Of a stretch of 20,401 nucleotides of DNA, positions 9,668-19,750 are shown piece after piece. A program made the position numbers and the translations under genes. This DNA is from a virus. Position 1 is the first letter of the stretch. Each line of letters opens with the position of its first letter. Below the pieces are notes generated by a model. It searched no databases. It was not told the DNA's origin and was given only the letters and a program-made list of their open reading frames with translations. The stretch is taken from the IMG/VR virus record IMGVR_UViG_3300010151_000267, positions 1 to 20,401 of that record; one strand, 5' to 3'.

Positions 9668-10083
9668 TGTCATACATAACATATAAAGATATTTATAAAC
9701 AAATATCCAGTAGAGTAAGAGTAGAAGCGTCTGGCAGGAAAAAGACAAAAGCTATACCTTACTCTTTGTATTTTAAAATAGTTACTAAATTTTTCGAGAT
9801 TCTAGCCAGAGACTTAGTGGTTAGAAAACAAAGAATTTTCTTACCTTTGGGTTTAGGATTCTTGCATGTAGAAAAGAAAGAGCATACTAGAGCTTTTCAT
9901 ATACGAAAAGATATTGCCGAATCCAGACTGAAAGGTGAGCCTGTTAGGTACAAGGTTCCTATATTAGATGATTATTATTATAAAATAAGTTGGGCTAAAG
10001 GCGGTAAAGGTTTCCATAAGTGTAAACTTTATCCAGCTAAAAAAGTCAGAGAACTATTAAAAGATACATACAATGCAAGTTAG
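9667..10083 (+). CDS. HU/IHF-like DNA-binding-fold protein in the tail cluster
   Basis: HU/IHF proteins are small dimeric DNA-bending proteins. The characteristic saddle strand region is visible at 56-71 (RIFLPLGLGFLHVEKK), aligning by eye with the family's LPGFGTFEVRER. It is preceded by a helix (KIVTKFFEILARDL) equivalent to HU helix 2. The C-terminal helix (YPAKKVRELLKD) matches the family's closing helix. Residues 72-118 would be the arm and are longer and more basic/aromatic than in HU. At 138 aa it exceeds the usual 90-100. crAss-like phages are known to carry IHF-like genes in the structural block, which supports the call. It may be a virion component, not a free nucleoid protein. Its end overlaps the next gene by 11 bases. 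Confidence 0.65.
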   Translation: MSYITYKDIYKQISSRVRVEASGRKKTKAIPYSLYFKIVTKFFEILARDLVVRKQRIFLPLGLGFLHVEKKEHTRAFHIRKDIAESRLKGEPVRYKVPILDDYYYKISWAKGGKGFHKCKLYPAKKVRELLKDTYNAS

Positions 10084-10672
10084 TGTTAAAAGAATAATTG
10101 GAAATGTAGCTCGTAACTTAGGGTTGAATAATCCATCAGAACATATAGAGTCATTTATAGAATGGGCTTTTGAGGCTGAGGAAAAGATAGGCAGCTTTAG
10201 TACGTTTACAGACAAGGAGTCTGCTTTAACCGTGACTGACAGCAAAGCTTTATTACCTACAGATTTAATGACTTTAATAGATGTGAAAGGTATTACATTT
10301 ATGGAGCCCACTCAAAAAACATTTAAAGCAGATTCTTCTGGTGACAAGTATTGGATAGTAGGTAGTTATATACATTTTTCTAATGTTAAAGAAGGAACGG
10401 TAGATATAGCTTACAAAGCTTTAGCTACAGATGATGAAGGATTCCCAACAATAAAACAAGGACATGAAGATGCTGTTGCTCAGTATATTATGTGGAGGTT
10501 TAAATCTATAGAATATTATAACGGTAAGATTGCTAGATATATAGTTCAGGATTTAGAGAAGCGATGGTATTGGTTGTGCGGCCAAGCGAGAGGTAAAGAT
10601 AATTTACCTTCAGAAGCTGAGATGAGAAACATAGCAAAGTATTGGAATACATTAATCCCTGAGAGAGAATAA
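10073..10672 (+). CDS. Ring (neck/tail adaptor) protein, third of three
   Basis: A 199-aa protein with N-terminal helices (RIIGNVARNLG, then IESFIEWAFEAEEKIG at 25-40). A beta-rich middle contains ALLPTDLMTLIDVKGI at 59-74 and YWIVGSYIHFS at 93-103. The motif DDEGFPTIKQGHEDAVAQYI follows at 120-139, with a long C-terminal helical region rich in Trp and Arg. The GFPTI element followed by a helix resembles ring or tail-tubular proteins of crAss-like phages and P22 gp4-type adaptors. It starts inside the end of the HU/IHF-like gene and is followed two bases later by the muzzle gene. It therefore probably forms the ring that contacts the muzzle. Confidence 0.65.
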   Translation: MQVSVKRIIGNVARNLGLNNPSEHIESFIEWAFEAEEKIGSFSTFTDKESALTVTDSKALLPTDLMTLIDVKGITFMEPTQKTFKADSSGDKYWIVGSYIHFSNVKEGTVDIAYKALATDDEGFPTIKQGHEDAVAQYIMWRFKSIEYYNGKIARYIVQDLEKRWYWLCGQARGKDNLPSEAEMRNIAKYWNTLIPERE

Positions 10673-10674
10673 CT

Positions 10675-13600
10675 ATGGCAGAGCAATCTAAACCAAACAC
10701 TTTTAGTGGAGGTATGGTAACGGATTTAGATCCTGCATACCAACCTAAAGAATCTTACTTCACAGGACTTAATATTCGTGTAGTCACTAATGGAGATAAT
10801 TCATATTCGCTAGAGAATATCCAGGGTCCACAATTGGAATGGAATTTAAATACTCATACAGATGGTGTTTACTATACTGGTACAAACAGGTATGTTATTC
10901 ATGGAGCTGTAGTGGTTGATGATTATATCATAACTATAGAAGGTCAATTAACTGCCTCTAATAAGAACTGGAAGATAAGAAAATACATAATAGACTATTT
11001 GGGGGATATTAGTCTAGATGGATCATTAGATTCTGCTCTTTGGAGTGGAGCAGGATTGTTCAGCGATGATGCTGGTGAAATAGAAATGGAGGCTATCGCT
11101 GAAACAGAAAATATACACCGTATATATTGTACAGATGGTATATCACCACTACTGTCTATTAACGTCAAAGAAGATATAAGCGCATTGACGGTATCTGACT
11201 TTAAAGTGTTTAAGCCTAACATTATGGCATCAGCCACAGTGTCTAGTTTCACAGATAATGGTGGTAATTTACTTTGCGGTTCTTATAGTTATGTTTATAG
11301 GTTTAATACGGAAAACCAATCTAATTATACGGATTGGTCTCCAATGTCTAGAGCTATCAACATACCTATAAATAACGTTCAAGGGAGTGATAGCTTAACA
11401 ATTAAAGGGGCGACAGGATCAGATATATCAGCTCACACAGTTAAAGTAGGTATTACTGGTATACCAACTAATTATACTCATATAGAGGTTGCTCAAATTC
11501 ACTTTGTTGGTCCTAATGTTAGTACTATACACATTATTGAAAAGGCAGAATTACTTGGTGAAACTCATGAATTTGTTCATAGTGGATTTGAAACTAAAAC
11601 CTTAGTCGAAGGTGGCATCGCAGATGTTTTAATTAAAAACACAGTTTGGGATACGTGTAAGTCTTTAGCTCAAAAAGATAATAGGCTTTACAGTTCTAAC
11701 TTAGATCATTCAAGGTTAAGCCCTACATATAAGTCAATTGACGATATAGCTTCCTTGCTGGATAGTTATAAAGTAAAGTCATATAAGGCTGTATGGAATA
11801 GCGGTTCTCATAGTAGCTTTTCAGGTCAGACTGGCGCTGCTGGACTGAACGAGCATAGACATAAAAAATGTTACACCCTTACTAGCCCTGAAGATGACGC
11901 TACTAATTTTTTCAAGTTTATTCCAAATAACTACGGTACTGGAGCTAACCCAAAATATGTATTAGGGGCTGAAACTCCTGGATACACTAATAGCAGTAAT
12001 GACGGATTCAGAATAACATTCCAACACGAAAGCTATCCTATAGATGAGCACGCCACTGGTAGTGAAAGTTATTTTGCAACAACAGAAAAAGAAGTTACAA
12101 GTGGTCAGGATAGGTATTATAATGTTCCATTTAAAGTAAGCACAGTAGATTCAAATTACCTAAACTCAGTCAAGGGTCCTATAAACCCAAAGTGGGATAA
12201 TGAATTTAGGAGTTTTAGAAGGGGAGAGTGCTATAGGTTTGGTATTATTTTAATTGATAAAAATGGATTAGAAAGTTTTGTGCATCATATAGGCGATATA
12301 AAAATGCCTGATGGTAATGATCCTAATTACTGGAAGTTAAATGCTTCTGGATCAGGTGTAGAGGCTAATAACACATCCAACTATCCTCCTAATAATTGGG
12401 CTCCATTTAGTATGGCTAACTTATCTGCTGGAGGCACAGAGTATAGAACTGTAACGGCTCACGCTTTAATACCCAGAATAGACGTTAGGCTTCCAAGCGC
12501 TGTAACAGATATAATTTCAGGGTACAGAATAGTTAGAGCAGAAGTTACAGATGAGGATAAGGTAATGATAACTCAAGGATTGGCTAGTGACGTATTTAAG
12601 TATGACGACACAGATACCGACTCCACTATTAGTGGGCTTTATGGTGTTGGGTGGTTAGCAAATACAAGACTTAGAATATCAGGGGTTAATAATGGTGCGG
12701 TAACAGGTTTTTCTTCTGGTCATGAATCTCAACTTAGAAATCAATTGTCTTCAGGAAATTCTGGAATGCTATTAGACACTCCAGACGTAACTATAGGAGG
12801 TAAAAATTACCTACTTGGTAGTGGGTATAAAATCCAACCCTCGTATCTTATGGTTGGAAGAGGTACTGTAGGTAATTACGAAGAGAGGGGTATTATTATT
12901 TATGATGGCTTATCTCAAACAGACGCACAATTACCTAATGGTATTCACTCAGGCTTGTATAAATACAGTCCAGTAAAGCTAGGAAGTGATTTCACTGAAT
13001 TTACTGCGTACTCAGGAAATACAGCTCAATACGCTAATATTTCTGTAAGTAATTTAAGCGAGATTGGTTCTAGTTATGATGGAACTCAGGTTAATGAAAT
13101 AATTAAGGATACCGTCTATGTAAAAACAATTGTTAATGGTGAAGTTGTAAGTTCTACAGATACAGGGTGGAGTGCTAATTTTATAAATAAAGCAGCCATG
13201 GATGGTGATGCATCTCCAACTCATGAGGGTTCTATAAATTCATTAGGTCTAGTCGGTGACGGACCCTTAAGGGGTAATGACGTAATAGGCTCGTCAACAA
13301 AGCTATTAATTTCAATGGATGGAAATTGGATTAATTGTGGTGCATTTAAAAACACCACTACGGGCAACAGAATCCTTGTGGGTGAAGATGATGGTATTGA
13401 TTGGGGTTATACTAACCCTATTGGGAGTAATGATTATCCTACAACTGGATGGAGTAAAGGTAAGTGGGTGGTTGATTTAGTTAGAGATACAGATGATGGT
13501 AGTGGTGGAACAAACTTTGAGCAGTATGGGGGCGCAGGTAGTACTGCTCTTCAAAATACTAGATATATTCCTTGCTCTGATTTTACTCCAGTTGACGATT

Positions 13601-14997
13601 TTAACTCACAAGTTTCAACTGTAAATATAGATGGTGGGGATACGTTTTGCGATATGTATACCAGCCTATCTACGTTCAAAGAATCTAGTTCAGATAATGT
13701 TCAGTCTTTTGGAATAGCTGTACCTTTAGAAAGTTCTTATAATATGGGTTACAGGTCTGGATCTTATTATGGAAGTAGTTTAACTGCGGTAACAACACAG
13801 GAAGATTCATACCAGTATAATTTTGCTTATCACCAAGCCATAAACACAAAGGGTTATGTTCAAAAGCCTGCTGGATTCAATCCTAATACTCAATTCAAAA
13901 ATAAGATAGTTGCTTCGCAGGTAAAGCTTGCTGGTGAACCTCAAGATGCTTGGAGTTCCTTTTTATCTAACGACTTTATAGAGTTACCTTTAAAGCAAGG
14001 AGAAATTGTAGATCTTTTAAATTATAGAAATAACTTATACAGCATACAGTCGGATGGAGTTAGTTTAATCTCTATAAATTCTAGAGTATTAATTCAAGGC
14101 GAGGGAGCTTCTGCAGATATACAGATAGCATCTGGTACTGGAACAGTAATGGATAGATATGACTATTTAACCACTCAGTACGGGTCTAAATATTACAATA
14201 AGTCAATAGTCACTCCTACGGGTGCTTTCTTTTTAGATACAGAAAGAAGTGAATTATTGAAACTATCTGGGGAGGGTGTTAACCCAGTATCCCTAACTAA
14301 TTCCTACAAAAACTATATAGTAGGATTAACTAAAGATAAAACTATATTAACCTCTGAAAACAACAATCTGGGTAGTTTAACTCAGGGTTTGTTTACGGGA
14401 TACGACAATGAATTTAGAGAGTGCCACTTTACAATAGTAGATTCTGATGATTCCAAAAATAGTTTTGTAATCTCCGACTTAGACGGGAAACTTATTAGCA
14501 ACTTAGAGCTTTTAAGTGCCGCTACAACCACATCAATTGGTGCTATATTTTTTAAGAAATACATATCATATAAAAATAGATTATTTGGTATAGGTCATGA
14601 AACCGCAACAAGCAACAATGATAATATATATTTATTTAATTCAGATGTATATCAACACTTTAATGTTGGGATCGTAGTGAATGACAGTCCTACGATAAAT
14701 AAGATATTTGATACGTCAGAAATAATTAGTGATGTAACAAACACAACAGATACATTTACGTCTCATACCTTGTCGGACTCTACTGGTAGTGATGCTACAA
14801 CAGGTTCTAACGAGAGAATTAGAGAGGGTATTCATAGGGTTTCACTAAGAGGTGCATCTACGAGTAGAGCTAGAGGAAACTGGTTAAAACATACGATAGC
14901 TTATAGTCAGGCTTTATTAAGCAATAGCATTAACTCTGCTACTGATAAAAAATTTAATATATTTGCAGTAAACACAAGATATAGAAAATCAAATTAA
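10675..14997 (+). CDS. Muzzle / tail stabilisation protein, 1440 aa
   Basis: The largest complete gene here. Its N-terminus (FSGGMVTDLDPAY, then a YFTGLNIRVV segment, then ENIQGP, residues 10-52) is the hallmark start of phage stabilisation proteins (P22 gp10 type) and of crAss-like muzzle proteins, which close the distal tail and gate ejection. Residues about 1100-1340 show blade-like beta repeats (IVDLLNYRNNLYSIQSDGVS, then FFLDTERSELLKLSGEGV, then ISYKNRLFGIGHE). The end (IFAVNTRYRKSN) resembles the conserved C-terminus of these proteins. The size fits the very large crAss-like muzzle and is far above P22 gp10. The central region (about 300-1000) is Gly/Ser/Asn-rich, beta-rich and poorly conserved-looking, and may hold receptor-facing or fibre-docking parts. 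Confidence 0.75.
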   Translation: MAEQSKPNTFSGGMVTDLDPAYQPKESYFTGLNIRVVTNGDNSYSLENIQGPQLEWNLNTHTDGVYYTGTNRYVIHGAVVVDDYIITIEGQLTASNKNWKIRKYIIDYLGDISLDGSLDSALWSGAGLFSDDAGEIEMEAIAETENIHRIYCTDGISPLLSINVKEDISALTVSDFKVFKPNIMASATVSSFTDNGGNLLCGSYSYVYRFNTENQSNYTDWSPMSRAINIPINNVQGSDSLTIKGATGSDISAHTVKVGITGIPTNYTHIEVAQIHFVGPNVSTIHIIEKAELLGETHEFVHSGFETKTLVEGGIADVLIKNTVWDTCKSLAQKDNRLYSSNLDHSRLSPTYKSIDDIASLLDSYKVKSYKAVWNSGSHSSFSGQTGAAGLNEHRHKKCYTLTSPEDDATNFFKFIPNNYGTGANPKYVLGAETPGYTNSSNDGFRITFQHESYPIDEHATGSESYFATTEKEVTSGQDRYYNVPFKVSTVDSNYLNSVKGPINPKWDNEFRSFRRGECYRFGIILIDKNGLESFVHHIGDIKMPDGNDPNYWKLNASGSGVEANNTSNYPPNNWAPFSMANLSAGGTEYRTVTAHALIPRIDVRLPSAVTDIISGYRIVRAEVTDEDKVMITQGLASDVFKYDDTDTDSTISGLYGVGWLANTRLRISGVNNGAVTGFSSGHESQLRNQLSSGNSGMLLDTPDVTIGGKNYLLGSGYKIQPSYLMVGRGTVGNYEERGIIIYDGLSQTDAQLPNGIHSGLYKYSPVKLGSDFTEFTAYSGNTAQYANISVSNLSEIGSSYDGTQVNEIIKDTVYVKTIVNGEVVSSTDTGWSANFINKAAMDGDASPTHEGSINSLGLVGDGPLRGNDVIGSSTKLLISMDGNWINCGAFKNTTTGNRILVGEDDGIDWGYTNPIGSNDYPTTGWSKGKWVVDLVRDTDDGSGGTNFEQYGGAGSTALQNTRYIPCSDFTPVDDFNSQVSTVNIDGGDTFCDMYTSLSTFKESSSDNVQSFGIAVPLESSYNMGYRSGSYYGSSLTAVTTQEDSYQYNFAYHQAINTKGYVQKPAGFNPNTQFKNKIVASQVKLAGEPQDAWSSFLSNDFIELPLKQGEIVDLLNYRNNLYSIQSDGVSLISINSRVLIQGEGASADIQIASGTGTVMDRYDYLTTQYGSKYYNKSIVTPTGAFFLDTERSELLKLSGEGVNPVSLTNSYKNYIVGLTKDKTILTSENNNLGSLTQGLFTGYDNEFRECHFTIVDSDDSKNSFVISDLDGKLISNLELLSAATTTSIGAIFFKKYISYKNRLFGIGHETATSNNDNIYLFNSDVYQHFNVGIVVNDSPTINKIFDTSEIISDVTNTTDTFTSHTLSDSTGSDATTGSNERIREGIHRVSLRGASTSRARGNWLKHTIAYSQALLSNSINSATDKKFNIFAVNTRYRKSN

Positions 14998-14998
14998 T

Positions 14999-15589
14999 AT
15001 GGAAAATGCATTAGGGTTATATAATATTGTAAATTCTTATCAAAGGGATTCAGGTGATGGAACGTCTGATGATCAAGCCTTTACGATGAGTGATAAAATG
15101 CAGGCTAGGTTTGATGCTATAAAGTTAGAAAACCCAACTTTTACTGACGATCAAATACACGATCAAATCAAAAAGGAAGATGGCTCAAAGGCTGCGTCTG
15201 TCGCTGGAATTGCAGGGGCAGCATTAAGTGTTGCAAGTCAGTTCGGAGGAGATGAGAATCCATTAAACAAAAACCTAGCATTAAAGGGTGGTCTTACTGG
15301 AGTTGTTTCGGGAGCCTCTATGGGAGCTAAAGTTGGCGGAGTGCCAGGAGCTATTGCTGGAGGTATCGTTATGGGTGTTGCTGGAGCTTGGAAGGGCGAT
15401 AAAGAACAGACGACACAAGATAAGTTAGAGGTTAAAAACGAAGCCATTACTGCAAACACTAGTGTTGCAAGTAGTAATGCTGTGTCAAGCTCTATACTTG
15501 ATGATCGTTATAGAAAGAATGTCAGTAACTCTCTAAAAAATACTTACGGAGTAGGTGATATAGATAATTTTACAAATAAATATAGTTAA
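14999..15589 (+). CDS. Glycine-zipper small protein, putative cargo/ejection protein
   Basis: A 196-aa protein whose residues 66-81 and 97-131 are rich in Gly and Ala in a GxxxG-like pattern (SVAGIAGAALSVASQF, then VVSGASMGAKVGGVPGAIAG, then GIVMGVAGAW). This is characteristic of segments that insert into or pack against membranes. The flanking regions are hydrophilic. There is no N-terminal signal peptide. It sits directly between the muzzle and the lysozyme-bearing protein, where crAss-like and other podoviruses encode proteins stored in the virion and released with DNA. A role in forming a channel through the host envelope is an inference from the zipper and the position. The ATG is one base after the muzzle stop. 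Confidence 0.55.
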   Translation: MENALGLYNIVNSYQRDSGDGTSDDQAFTMSDKMQARFDAIKLENPTFTDDQIHDQIKKEDGSKAASVAGIAGAALSVASQFGGDENPLNKNLALKGGLTGVVSGASMGAKVGGVPGAIAGGIVMGVAGAWKGDKEQTTQDKLEVKNEAITANTSVASSNAVSSSILDDRYRKNVSNSLKNTYGVGDIDNFTNKYS

Positions 15590-15596
15590 GATAGTT

Positions 15597-17834
15597 ATGG
15601 ATAAGGCTGAGTTAGCAAAATACATGGAGAACCCAAATGTAAAATGGGTTTTATATAACATACTTAAACATGAGTCAGGAAAAGTAAATGGTAAAGTAAA
15701 TACTGGTGGTTTCAATGAGAGCGCTGGTGATAGTACTGCTTACGGTTCAGGACAGTTTATTGGAAAAACAAGAAATACTATATTAAATGATTATAGTATA
15801 GATGCTTGGTCGGATAGCTTAGAAGACCAACAATTAGCCGCAATAGCTTTAATGCACTCTAATGGCGACCTTGATGCAATAGCTGGTGGAGATTATTCTG
15901 GACTTAAAAGTAATAATTATTGGGAAGCTTTTTCTAGTGATGAAAATCATAAAAGACTAACTAAGAATAAACCTGCAGGGTGGGAGGATAAGTATACAAA
16001 TATGCAATCGGACTCTATACATGATCCTGCAGCAAGTTGGAGTAAGTTAAGTCCTGAAATGAAAAAAGAAAAGAAGGGGTGGTTTGATAGTAAGTATGGT
16101 GGAATGCCTAAAGGTTTTGATATAGGTGGTGGTGTTCCTACAGAAGAACAAGCGAAAGAAGATCCGAGATATGCTAGAAATAAATCTCCAAGATTAGATG
16201 AGGCTAAGGATTTTATAAAGCAATGGAAAGAAATACAAGGCAGTGAAAGAGTAGACAAAGAAAGAGCCCTTAAAGATTTAGCTAAAACACACCCTGGTTT
16301 TAAATATACAGTACCTGGATATGTTAAGGGTAAAACAAAAGGTCACTCAGGCGGTGTGAACCCTAAAAATTATACTGTAGGCCATATAGAAAAAAACGTT
16401 AATCTATTAACTTATCATAGGTTAAGCGATATTGATAAGTGGATAAATAACAGTGAGGCAGCCATATTAAAACAAGCTGATGCCGCAGATCAAATATCTG
16501 TAGGTGTTAAGCCAAGTTTAGTTTTAAAGGGTGTTGATGATAACATTTCTATCGCTAAAGACGAAAAGAATAATATACCTGCCACAGACGCCTCAAAGAG
16601 CCCTACTCCTGTTCTAACTGAAGATAATAAAGTAGAAAACTTTGTTGAATTACCTGAAATGGATGAATCTGCTTTGGTTGATCCAATAGTTGATGAGGAT
16701 GCAGATGTTGAAGATGATTTTGAAATAGAAGAAATTGATTTATCTTTAGCGCCAGAGCTTGAAAAAGATGAAGATCTTAGTTTTGAAGATTGGAAGATTA
16801 GATACCCTGACGGAACTCAAGAGGAGTACGATAATAGAGGGGTTACAGAGGGAGACTCTGGTTATCAAGACTGGTTGAAAGACAACCCTGGAGGAACTAA
16901 AGAAGAATATCAAAAGTATTTCGACTTACGAGGTGATACGTCTGGATTAGGTGAGGAGTCATTCCTAGATAAGATAGGAGGGCTATCATCTCTTATAGGT
17001 TTAGCTACAGGAGCTATGGGATTAGGTCAAGCATTAAAAGATGTAGACATCCCTAAAGATCCAAAGTTAGGCCCTGCTTTTCAACAAAGATTAGAAGAAT
17101 CTAAGAGGTTAGCGCAACAAGGGTTAACTCCATCTGAATTAGCTAAGGCTCATAATGATTTAGATTCATCTTATGCTACAGGTATAGAGAATATTGTTCG
17201 TGGTTCAGCAGGGAACAGAGCTCAGTTTTTGGCTGGGCTTGGAGGTCTTGATGTTGCACGTCAATCTGCCTTGATGGATATTGCAGTAGCTGATGCTAGT
17301 ATGCAAAGACAAAATCAAGATAAGTACGATAAGATGATGATGGTTAATGAGCAGTATGAAGCTGCTAGAACATCTAAGTATGATCAAGCAAAGTACGAGC
17401 AAGACATGGCAACTAAGTCTGCTGGAGCTGCTCTAGCTGGTAGTGCCTTATCAATGGTTAACGAAAACATAGGTAATCGCCAACTTAATAGATACAATAA
17501 GATGAAGACTGAAAAGCTTATGCGAGACATGGGTTATAGGAATGATTCTAACGGTAAATCTACCGAGAAGCAACTAGGGGTTGATCCTGATACTGGAGAG
17601 AAAGTTCAAACTAGCTTCTCTCTTCCTGGAGATGATAATTATGTGGTTCCGAATCTTCTTAGCGCAGATGAGCAAGTAATTAATACGGAGGTAGAGAATA
17701 ATCAAGCCTCCTTAATAGACGATAGTTCGTTAAACGAAACTAATTTACTTCCTTTTGATGCGTTTGATTTGTCTAGAAGAAAATCAAAACCGTCTGGGCT
17801 TATCAATCCAGATAACATATTATTTGAGTACTAA
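15597..17834 (+). CDS. Virion cargo protein with N-terminal lysozyme/transglycosylase-like domain, 745 aa
   Basis: Residues 1-130 resemble a phage muramidase or lytic transglycosylase: a helix ending in HESG (putative catalytic E26), then TAYGSGQFIGKT at 47-58, equivalent to the family's AYGxxQF/L motif, and EDQQLAAIALM at 76-86. This would locally cut peptidoglycan during DNA entry. Residues 174-270 hold glycine-rich linkers (FDIGGGVP, KTKGHSGGVNPKNYTVGH). Residues about 355-395 are strongly acidic. Two tandem DW...GT.EEY repeats follow at 396-445, then a hydrophobic segment at 460-480 (LSSLIGLATGAMGLGQAL). A long helical region at 495-660 includes VRGSAGNRAQFLAGL, which I associate with cargo proteins of crAss-like phages. 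The multi-part layout fits an ejected virion protein. Confidence 0.7.
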   Translation: MDKAELAKYMENPNVKWVLYNILKHESGKVNGKVNTGGFNESAGDSTAYGSGQFIGKTRNTILNDYSIDAWSDSLEDQQLAAIALMHSNGDLDAIAGGDYSGLKSNNYWEAFSSDENHKRLTKNKPAGWEDKYTNMQSDSIHDPAASWSKLSPEMKKEKKGWFDSKYGGMPKGFDIGGGVPTEEQAKEDPRYARNKSPRLDEAKDFIKQWKEIQGSERVDKERALKDLAKTHPGFKYTVPGYVKGKTKGHSGGVNPKNYTVGHIEKNVNLLTYHRLSDIDKWINNSEAAILKQADAADQISVGVKPSLVLKGVDDNISIAKDEKNNIPATDASKSPTPVLTEDNKVENFVELPEMDESALVDPIVDEDADVEDDFEIEEIDLSLAPELEKDEDLSFEDWKIRYPDGTQEEYDNRGVTEGDSGYQDWLKDNPGGTKEEYQKYFDLRGDTSGLGEESFLDKIGGLSSLIGLATGAMGLGQALKDVDIPKDPKLGPAFQQRLEESKRLAQQGLTPSELAKAHNDLDSSYATGIENIVRGSAGNRAQFLAGLGGLDVARQSALMDIAVADASMQRQNQDKYDKMMMVNEQYEAARTSKYDQAKYEQDMATKSAGAALAGSALSMVNENIGNRQLNRYNKMKTEKLMRDMGYRNDSNGKSTEKQLGVDPDTGEKVQTSFSLPGDDNYVVPNLLSADEQVINTEVENNQASLIDDSSLNETNLLPFDAFDLSRRKSKPSGLINPDNILFEY

Positions 17835-17857: not shown

Positions 17858-19750
17858 ATGGCAATAGACTACGGAGCAATGCAAGCTTTAACTGAAGTAT
17901 TTAAAGGTACATCAGAAGCTAGAAGAAATAGGAAGGCTGAAGAAGCACAGATGCGTCAAGAGATGCTCCAGCAGGAGAACATGGACTTCAAGAACGCTCA
18001 AATGGTTGGTCAAGAACAAGCAGCTATAGAGGCTTCTAGAGAGTCCTACTTAAAGCAGGTTCAGAAGATTCCTCACATGAGAGATTATGTGAATAATTAC
18101 TTTGACGAACAAACCTTAGAGTTTAAAGGGTTGATTAAATCTTTTAATGGTAGATACTCTACAGCTATGAGTAGCGGTAAGGTATTAGACTTTAGAGATA
18201 ATCTTATGACTAACCTAAAGAAAAGCGATAAGTATCAGCAAGGCGTTACCTCTGCTACTAACATGGCTCAGTTAGACGCTTGGTCTACGTCTGAAAAGAC
18301 GCAAGATTTAATATCTAGAAGAGATCAAATAAACAAGGCTGCATATTTAAGGGGTGAAACAGATTCCTTTGAACTTAGTGGATTAAGAGCTAAGTATGAC
18401 TCGGTTGATGCTGCGGATTACTATGAGGGAGAGCGACCAGATTTTGATAAAATATTTAGTAATCAATACGCTTCTATAGTTCATAATTGGGCTTTAGAAA
18501 ACGATGATGCTGATCAATCAAAGCTTACAGCTTTAGCAGAAAATTATTACCCTGGAGATCCAAATGGAAAAGAGAAATATCTTAAGCAATTTGCTCAAGA
18601 AGATATGGGAATAAAAGGTGCTTACGATACGAAGATGACTGGAACTAAAGAGTTACCTCCAGTAGCAGCTACAGCTAGAGTTAGAAATATATTTGATCAA
18701 ACAGCTAAAGGGCCTAACAGCGCTTACGGTATGCTTGCTAATGCAGCAGGGCAACCAATGATGCAGCAGTTTGGTTGCAAACCAGGCGGTCCTGAGCAGA
18801 AGGGTGATATGCAAATAGCAGGTTACGAAATATTTAACTCCGCTCCAGACGCTATATTAAAAGAGGCTAAATTCCAGTTTGGTGATGCTATGAAAAGCAA
18901 TGGTGATGGTACGTTTGATTTTACTCACGTTAAGAGAGCTTATGATGCTAATGGTGTTTACATGGATGATCAAGACGGAGATGATACTCACACCAACATG
19001 ACTTATAATGGAGCTCACATGGTTACTAAGGCAAGGTTTAGATTACCTGATGGAACTATTAAAGAGCAATTAATGGGAGATCCTAAAGATAGGGATTTAA
19101 TAAAATCATTAGAAAAAGAATGGGGTACAAATGTTACTTACGTTCCAACTATGGTTGCTACATTCCAAAACGATAATTGGGCTACGTGGTGGGATAAACA
19201 GGTTATGGTAGAAATGGACCCTAAGACTATGTCTATGGAGCGCATTATGGATAACACTGGAATGGAAGAGAAGATGCAAGAGTCTGCTGAAGGCTCAAGA
19301 GTTATAGCTAAACTATCTGGAGCGCCACAAGAAGATTTAGAAACTAATCTAAATGCTGTAAGAGCGCAACAACAGAAAGACGGTAATGCTTTCTATAAAG
19401 GTACTGGTGGTGAAGCTGGTGAAGACGCAACAATGGATGTAGTAGCAAGTTATTTTGCGCCTGAGTTTAATGTAATGCAAGGGGCTGAAGATTCTAAAGG
19501 AATACTTTACTCTATCGCATCTACAGCAGCCAAGAATCAAGGTGGAGATTTTGCTAGCAATTCTAAGCAATATATGAATGCTATAGGTAATCTTATGAAG
19601 GCAACGGATAGTAATGGGAAAAAATTCCAGATGGCTATAGAGAGTAAGAATCCAACAAATATTTATAATGTTATGAATACTATGTTTGGAGACATTGGGG
19701 ATAAGAATGAAATCCTTAAATTAGCAGAGATTTGGAGTAACTACAATTAA
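17858..19750 (+). CDS. Putative virion cargo/internal protein, 630 aa
   Basis: I do not recognise a catalytic domain. Residues 1-60 form a charged Glu/Gln/Arg helix (ARRNRKAEEAQMRQEMLQQE), and residues 60-200 stay mainly helical. The middle (about 290-460) is mixed and contains a DDQDGDD cluster near 370-376. The C-terminal third is Ala/Met/Asn-rich. There is no signal peptide or clear membrane segment, and a single cysteine lies near 305. The position between the lysozyme-bearing protein and another long internal-type protein supports a protein packaged in head or tail and ejected with DNA. Its ATG follows a 23-base A-rich gap without a Shine-Dalgarno sequence. Confidence 0.6.
   Translation: MAIDYGAMQALTEVFKGTSEARRNRKAEEAQMRQEMLQQENMDFKNAQMVGQEQAAIEASRESYLKQVQKIPHMRDYVNNYFDEQTLEFKGLIKSFNGRYSTAMSSGKVLDFRDNLMTNLKKSDKYQQGVTSATNMAQLDAWSTSEKTQDLISRRDQINKAAYLRGETDSFELSGLRAKYDSVDAADYYEGERPDFDKIFSNQYASIVHNWALENDDADQSKLTALAENYYPGDPNGKEKYLKQFAQEDMGIKGAYDTKMTGTKELPPVAATARVRNIFDQTAKGPNSAYGMLANAAGQPMMQQFGCKPGGPEQKGDMQIAGYEIFNSAPDAILKEAKFQFGDAMKSNGDGTFDFTHVKRAYDANGVYMDDQDGDDTHTNMTYNGAHMVTKARFRLPDGTIKEQLMGDPKDRDLIKSLEKEWGTNVTYVPTMVATFQNDNWATWWDKQVMVEMDPKTMSMERIMDNTGMEEKMQESAEGSRVIAKLSGAPQEDLETNLNAVRAQQQKDGNAFYKGTGGEAGEDATMDVVASYFAPEFNVMQGAEDSKGILYSIASTAAKNQGGDFASNSKQYMNAIGNLMKATDSNGKKFQMAIESKNPTNIYNVMNTMFGDIGDKNEILKLAEIWSNYN

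Follow-up and report, generated by a model that had tools for sequence, protein, structure and literature searches.

A lysozyme-like front on a crassvirus cargo protein that is likely an exchangeable wall-cutting module

In the crassvirus PhiCrAss001, the genes behind the muzzle gene encode the cargo proteins C1 (gp45) and C2 (gp46). The parts of the crassvirus structural atlas that deal with cargo report both proteins in virions by mass spectrometry, place residues 214 to 245 of gp45 inside the tail barrel and residues 425 to 552 in the capsid at the portal, and expect gp45 to exit from the N to the C terminus (PMC10172136). According to the same parts of the atlas, cargo sets vary, with an epsilon group without detectable gp45 and others without gp46, and constrictions of <50 Å are argued to require partial unfolding of cargo proteins (PMC10172136). 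In the podovirus ejection proteins of the T7 type, the peptidoglycan hydrolase domain found in gp16 can move to the homologue of gp15, a type of swap that Swanson and colleagues, in the portion of their work bearing on this point, describe as a theme in the mosaicism among related phages (PMC8954989).

The window analyzed here is the whole 20,401-base virus record IMGVR_UViG_3300010151_000267 of IMG/VR and represents a fragment of a crassvirus genome. Membership in the Crassvirales is indicated by Pfam matches to the muzzle and ring families together with portal and terminase PHROGs; the PHROGs of the terminase, the portal, and the major head protein are matched farther upstream in the window. 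All features of the window given with coordinates lie on the plus strand. Tail ring protein 1 (10073..10672; Pfam CrAss_Ring_1, PF24228, 1.4e-38) is followed by the muzzle protein of 1440 amino acids (10675..14997; crAss_MUZ, PF25731, 5.1e-107), which marks both the crassvirus and the cargo position. Behind the muzzle stand a small gene of 196 amino acids with a glycine-rich hydrophobic stretch (14999..15589), the studied open reading frame (ORF) of 745 amino acids with an ATG start (15597..17834), the second in this series, and a 630-amino-acid gene (17858..19750), which occupies the place of cargo protein 2 by position and is not matched by Pfam crAss_CARGO2 at E values up to 1. The muzzle family is over the cut-off in all 10 relative records searched, a set to which locus L009 does not belong. 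In the loci that reach far enough, the order is muzzle, small gene, cargo-type gene, a gene of 605 to 653 amino acids, and a long ORF that runs off every locus, with up to 2241 amino acids visible. The small gene encodes 177 to 245 amino acids in these loci and 491 in L045. Its last ∼15 residues are conserved among relatives (mostly YGxxDIDNF) and the remainder is strongly variable, which suggests that the upstream gene is itself mosaic. In Cellulophaga phage phi14:2, the genes from g071, which is matched by the window muzzle, to g066 carry MS/MS notes. Judged from these counterparts, a protein encoded at this position is probably packaged as virion cargo, its N terminus pointing toward the exit.

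The studied ORF is open throughout and begins 7 bp past the preceding stop codon. The motifs from which the earlier note derived a muramidase-type domain are all found where it placed them, namely, HESG with E26 (codon at 15672-15674), AYGSGQF at residues 48 to 54 (15738-15758), and EDQQLAAIALM at residues 76 to 86 (15822-15854). They lie in a putative lysozyme-like N-terminal module of residues 1 to 143 (15597..16025), referred to below as type A. The module is followed by a variable middle of residues 144 to 455 (16026..16961), which contains an acidic stretch with 50% D/E over 40 amino acids from residue 354 (16656-16775) and two copies of the repeat F/YxxW...PxGTxEEY, at residues 396 to 411 (16782-16829) and 423 to 438 (16863-16910). 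The conserved C-terminal part, called the chassis here, comprises residues 456 to 647 (16962..17537) and shows 76 to 89% identity between the window and eight other close relatives; a variable C-terminal tail with the stop codon completes the gene (17538..17834). The acidic and repetitive parts described in the earlier note are present, but its hydrophobic part is mild only, with a 19-residue Kyte-Doolittle maximum of 1.21 at residue 462, too weak for calling a membrane helix. The two copies of the repeat stand directly ahead of the chassis in the window; one copy each is found in L008, L013, L004, and L024, and the same expression finds none in L003, L016, L015, L011, and L045. The repeat may represent a short binding motif.

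The gene is present in 11 contigs besides the window, which together give 10 distinct proteins with the window included; for this gene, L008 and L009 are near-copies with 99.96% identity, and L011 and L012 are 100% identical. A scan of IMG/VR with the muzzle leads to three loci, L002, L003, and L004. The muzzle of L002 is identical to that of the window, and this locus ends inside the muzzle; L003 and L004 contain an orthologue with a C-terminal part nearly the same as that of the window and an unrelated front. Further relatives were obtained by scans with the C-terminal part and with a motif pattern of the front, and the copy in L024 is cut by the contig end. The counts are lower bounds, because the last viral pattern scan, which returned no new contig, missed the known L016 contig. 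A chassis of ∼192 amino acids is common to nine of the distinct proteins at 70 to 98% identity. The remaining protein, from L045, combines a type A front with a distant chassis (hhalign E value of 2e-5 against the other nine), and the gene order of this locus is the same.

The fronts of the 10 distinct proteins fall into five types, with four proteins of type A, three of type B, and one each of types C, D, and E. Among nine of these proteins (L045 left out), the first 150 amino acids show 11 to 22% identity between types and 45 to 95% within types. Type A is found in the window, L008 (with its near-copy L009), L013, and L045. Type B (L003, L015, and L016) is lytic-transglycosylase-like. The full-length type B proteins match phrog_196, labeled "baseplate hub," at 1e-16 to 2e-13, and the matches to phrog_196, phrog_4928 (function unknown), and phrog_21656 ("peptidase") range from 1e-9 to 3e-17. 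Type B further matches 211 phage records at E values up to 0.01; among the best 15 of these 211 matches, 3 are annotated as transglycosylases and most as hypothetical, and the match from Pantoea phage Survivor, annotated as a lytic transglycosylase, shows the same E-T-G ... GLIQF order as type B. Type C (L004, 14653-15150) is of the NPGNI type. It shares the NPGNI start with the N terminus of gp16 from Kayfunavirus vB_CtuP_B1, annotated as a peptidoglycan transglycosylase, and a tblastn E value of 0.3 over 85% of the query makes this comparison thin evidence. In a two-sequence alignment, type C contains HQ where the vB_CtuP_B1 gp16 domain contains HE; type C possibly has a different catalytic site or is an inactive head. 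Type D (L011 and its copy L012) is Pesticin-like with an E value of 4.2e-4, and type E (L024) is Phage_lysozyme2-like with an E value of 6.8e-4 obtained only with the cut-out front; both matches fall short of their curated cut-offs. Comparison of the front types by hhalign, with thin alignments, gives no significant result for any of the 10 pairs (P values of 0.095 to 0.48), and a grouping of types A, B, and E into one family is unsupported by these comparisons. As the hhalign input alignments are thin, a remote common fold of the five fronts may nevertheless exist.

Searches beyond these contigs return little. The whole protein has no match in 50,697 phage records; in the same records, the type A fronts of the window and L045 give one chance-level row each and that of L013 none, the chassis gives three rows at E values of 3 to 9 and the L045 chassis none, and the D and E fronts have no match at an E value of 0.01. 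A single-protein scan for close relatives yields three pattern stretches, none confirmed, and scans with the type A front return only contigs already found. In cellular genomes, 64 pattern stretches were obtained, none of which was confirmed, and a second scan gave no pattern matches. PDB sequence searches with the whole protein, the chassis, and fronts A, C, D, and E show nothing credible.

Enzymes of the lysozyme-like superfamily and glycoside hydrolase family 23 (GH23) share a pattern in which the first long helix carries an invariant glutamate close to its end and a G-x-x-Q-F block follows. This pattern is present in all four distinct type A proteins, with E26 and with G50, Q53, and F54, and the structural model shows a helix at residues 13 to 27. 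Further residues unchanged in all four are A48, T58, R59, D69, A70, W71, Q78, A81, W109, and E110, and the blocks A-[YF]-G-[SA]-x-Q-F and D-A-W are kept in every distinct member. The underlying alignment has five rows, of which two are near-copies; the rows come from separate contigs, and identity with the window goes down to 33%. Because these residues are kept in four of four distinct proteins at identities as low as this, the type A motifs exceed chance.

Family and structure searches are less distinct. The first 135 residues of the window protein show a Pfam Phage_lysozyme2 hint with an E value of 0.026 and 15.1 bits against a cut-off of 28.2; the full-length protein does not match this family at E values up to 1, nor do the fronts of L008, L013, and L045, so that the hint is present in one of the four distinct type A fronts. 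Among these fronts, phrog_17230 ("tail fiber protein/ lysozyme") is matched by L013 only (E value of 0.0072), and phrog_25870, of unknown function, is matched by the window front at 0.0025 and by L013 at 0.017. Type A thus lacks a substantial match in Pfam, PHROGs, or NCBIfam, the NCBIfam matches being weak and unrelated, and has no PDB sequence match at an E value of 10; Pfam SLT (PF01464) is absent from the window protein. An AlphaFold model of type A built on the five rows has a pLDDT of 71 and a pTM of 0.76, with residues 31 to 52 partly below 50; an earlier model with a pLDDT of 55 is too poor for use alone. Foldseek finds nothing significant for the type A model, with best E values of 6.9 in the PDB and 4.0 in BFVD. 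In VIA-align, the best two of three rows are the Ralstonia chitinase entries 3w6d and 3w6e, with Z scores of 4.2 and 4.0 over 104 to 105 residues at an rmsd of 4.1 to 4.2, and the third row is a death-like domain with a Z score of 2.3; the first model gives a single row, the same chitinase, at a Z score of 3.2. The chitinase, from Ralstonia sp. A-471, which we take to be a GH23 enzyme with a lysozyme-like fold, is hence the best VIA-align hit for both type A models, and the aligned ranges contain E26 and W109. Judged from the ends of these ranges alone, Glu141 of the chitinase would sit near E26; identity is 10 to 15%, and a Z score of 4 is within the range of unrelated models. Since, by the tool's own warning, Z scores of about 4 are common among unrelated models, these rows suggest a lysozyme fold for type A and do not prove it. 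In hhalign comparisons of type A with type B, type E, and T7 gp16, 19, 67, and 13 of 100 column shuffles, respectively, reach the real score.

The muramidase-type front put forward in the earlier note thus stands in part: E26 is invariant, weak lysozyme matches occur, and relatives carry hydrolase-like fronts in the same slot, but no family cut-off is reached. Three alternatives bear on this result. The front could be derived from a lysozyme and inactive, the protein being structural cargo with a folded plug, an assembly part, or a peptidoglycan-binding piece at its N terminus. The missing cut-off for type A, the glutamine of type C at the place of the glutamate in Kayfunavirus gp16, and the repeats and acidic linker, which suggest binding roles, are in line with this explanation; it appears unlikely in view of the invariance of E26 and of the replacement by other lysozyme-like or transglycosylase-like modules rather than by arbitrary domains, which argues for a shared wall-cutting task. 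Distinctly unlikely is a helical cargo front of another fold without glycosidase function, in which the ES and GSGQF motifs merely resemble those of lysozymes. The Foldseek result, the profile comparisons at shuffle level, and the absence of the Pfam hint from three of the four distinct type A fronts are compatible with it, whereas the best VIA-align rows belong to a single chitinase, with ranges that include E26 and W109, and relatives fill the slot with other hydrolase-like domains. A late-acting endolysin fused by chance to a structural protein and serving host lysis instead of entry would explain a lysozyme-like front in a window where the family search (PHROGs for 16 of the 20 ORFs of ≥80 amino acids, the four on the minus strand left out, and Pfam for 7) finds no other lysin, but it is highly improbable given the location within the tail and cargo block, the large nonenzymatic remainder, the conserved chassis, and the incomplete coverage of the genome by the window, which leaves room for a separate endolysin elsewhere.

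These sequences are best read as encoding a cargo protein with a wall-cutting enzyme at its front. The gene probably encodes a crassvirus cargo (ejection) protein in which a variable linker joins an N-terminal module of the lysozyme or transglycosylase kind to a conserved C-terminal part and the front is an exchange cassette. In the proposed mechanism, the C-terminal part would anchor the protein or fold with other cargo, and the protein would be packed with its N terminus toward the tail exit, so that the N-terminal module leaves first and opens the murein locally, and the channel and DNA follow. This route may include the threading through the tail and the periplasmic refolding that the earlier note described. 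The unfolding argument drawn from the constrictions of <50 Å may or may not apply to a small front domain already in the tail; because residues 214 to 245 of gp45 are already located in the tail barrel of PhiCrAss001, a front domain placed there need not cross the portal channel at ejection. The exchange cassette would run from near the start codon up to where the conserved part begins, with relatives carrying different wall-cutting modules on the same chassis.

The mosaic pattern is evident at the DNA level in a comparison that covers 9 chosen pairs of the 36 possible among nine loci. L003 (type B) and L004 (type C) share 86% identity over the 13,324 bp that end where the upstream gene starts, followed by a break of ∼140 bp inside this gene, 82% identity over 397 bp extending 6 bp into the cargo-type gene, ∼1.6 kb without DNA similarity, and 79% identity starting 8 bp ahead of the chassis. 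Beginning with the final ∼90 bp of the upstream gene, L003 instead follows L016, at 90% identity over 9,578 bp. L013 (type A) and L011 (type D) show 87% identity upstream and share a 65-bp stretch where the upstream gene ends; identity is 85% across the chassis and 77% across the gene behind it. For the window (type A) and L004 (type C), identity is 76 to 81% upstream, where similarity already stops at the muzzle end, 76% around the chassis, and 78% downstream. The left edge of the unlike cassette falls in the last ∼50 to 100 bp of the upstream gene in three of the nine pairs (L003/L004, L013/L004, and L013/L011). Within L003, the L004-like and L016-like parts join in a stretch of about 100 bp (13726-13826) where the upstream gene ends; this join may be a product of recombination or of assembly, and an assembly chimera is conceivable for this one locus. 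Chimeric assembly is rejected as an account of the whole pattern, as several pairs are alike on both flanks of the cassette and two cassettes recur in second contigs (L008/L009 and L011/L012).

Trees give a more differentiated picture. In the muzzle tree, L003 (type B) and L004 (type C) are sisters with support of 100/100, type B needs three changes, and the types are unclustered; the rows of L016 (938 amino acids) and L045 (1145 amino acids) in this tree are incomplete, and the L045 branch is very long. In the chassis tree, type B forms a single clade (97/95), and four changes, the minimum possible, suffice for all five types; this tree is poorly resolved, with one of seven branches well supported, and 14 of 200 shuffles need as few as four changes. 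Since the chassis tree needs the minimum of changes, and in agreement with the long L003-L016 stretch, front and chassis appear to travel together in part; the trees do not show free swapping on a fixed chassis. Related middles are found behind different fronts in L008 (A) and L015 (B) and in L013 (A) and L004 (C), and therefore finer joins also occur. A more far-reaching proposal, to which we give somewhat less than an even chance, makes the cargo gene a site dedicated to exchange: the chassis and the 3′ end of the upstream gene, both conserved, would serve as homology arms, wall-cutting heads of at least five families would be swapped between them, and the entry enzyme would change with the remainder of the ejection machine untouched.

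Compared with PhiCrAss001, the protein stands in the same place as gp45, behind the muzzle and before cargo protein 2, with gp45 being the first gene there and the studied ORF the second. The portal-binding domain CARG1 (PF25725) is absent from the window protein at E values up to 1 and matches gp45 itself at 2.3e-66. An hhalign comparison of the chassis with gp45-type proteins gives a P value of 0.006, and a rerun gives 0.21, or 0.014 with L045, against 0.04 to 0.64 for the rerun's control families; direct homology of the chassis and gp45 is not established. Residues 657 to 709 of gp45 contain an S-x-GNR...AGL...D stretch that resembles one in the C-terminal part of the studied protein, in an alignment that is not significant. 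The family search matches no peptidoglycan-cutting domain in gp45. The glycine-rich hydrophobic region is located inside gp45 in PhiCrAss001 and in a separate upstream gene in the window: phrog_37425 is matched by a glycine-rich stretch of gp45 (1.9e-5) and by the small gene of the window (0.0028) and of L008 (6.6e-5), and it is not matched by the small gene of L003. Because of this resemblance, the role of C1 may be split over two genes here, a point weakened by the low complexity of the sequence. In phi14:2, g070 (L006, 13515-15296), located behind the muzzle, combines a CARG1 match (2.8e-10) with the HExxH-like stretches HEFTH and HEFIH, and a peptidase-like cargo may therefore replace glycosidases in this phage.

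For crassviruses, the locus provides a concrete candidate for the crossing of murein; it sits at the protein terminus that should exit first and varies between near relatives. Whether entry enzymes match host wall chemistry becomes testable, and five natural front modules on one carrier are available for comparison. The main text of the structural atlas does not contain the words "lysozyme," "muramidase," "peptidoglycan," or "transglycosylase" (PMC10172136), and "peptidoglycan," "endolysin," and "transglycosylase" are absent from the Crassvirales order review. Among the papers listed by a literature search, mostly judged at the title and abstract level, none was recognized as describing a crassvirus cargo protein with a wall enzyme. 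As far as this search goes, novelty lies in crassvirus cargo as the group concerned, in how many fronts occur on a single conserved chassis, and in the sharpness of the edges, and the protein, described as lysozyme-like cargo, is likely best viewed as a crassvirus cargo protein with an exchangeable wall-cutting front.

The T7 gp14/gp15/gp16-type ejection proteins of podoviruses likewise include a large internal virion protein with a peptidoglycan-cutting domain at its N terminus, and their genes likewise form a short operon behind a tail-tip gene. Swapping of hydrolase domains is known from these proteins in the portion of the T7-group work cited above (PMC8954989). T7 gp16 matches SLT at 2.6e-31, and gp16 of Kayfunavirus vB_CtuP_B1 has the NPGNI-type front and no SLT match, which means that the gp16 slot varies in the T7 family as well; the two differing N-terminal domains lie in L062 (2495-2974) and L064 (3596-4075). 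Given the domain swapping of T7 gp16 and this variable slot, the phenomenon is of a kind already known. The chassis found no T7-type protein in the PDB or phage searches, which involve no direct comparison with gp15 or gp16. In contrast to the T7-type proteins, type A has no SLT match, and the related crassviruses show five fronts on one conserved chassis.
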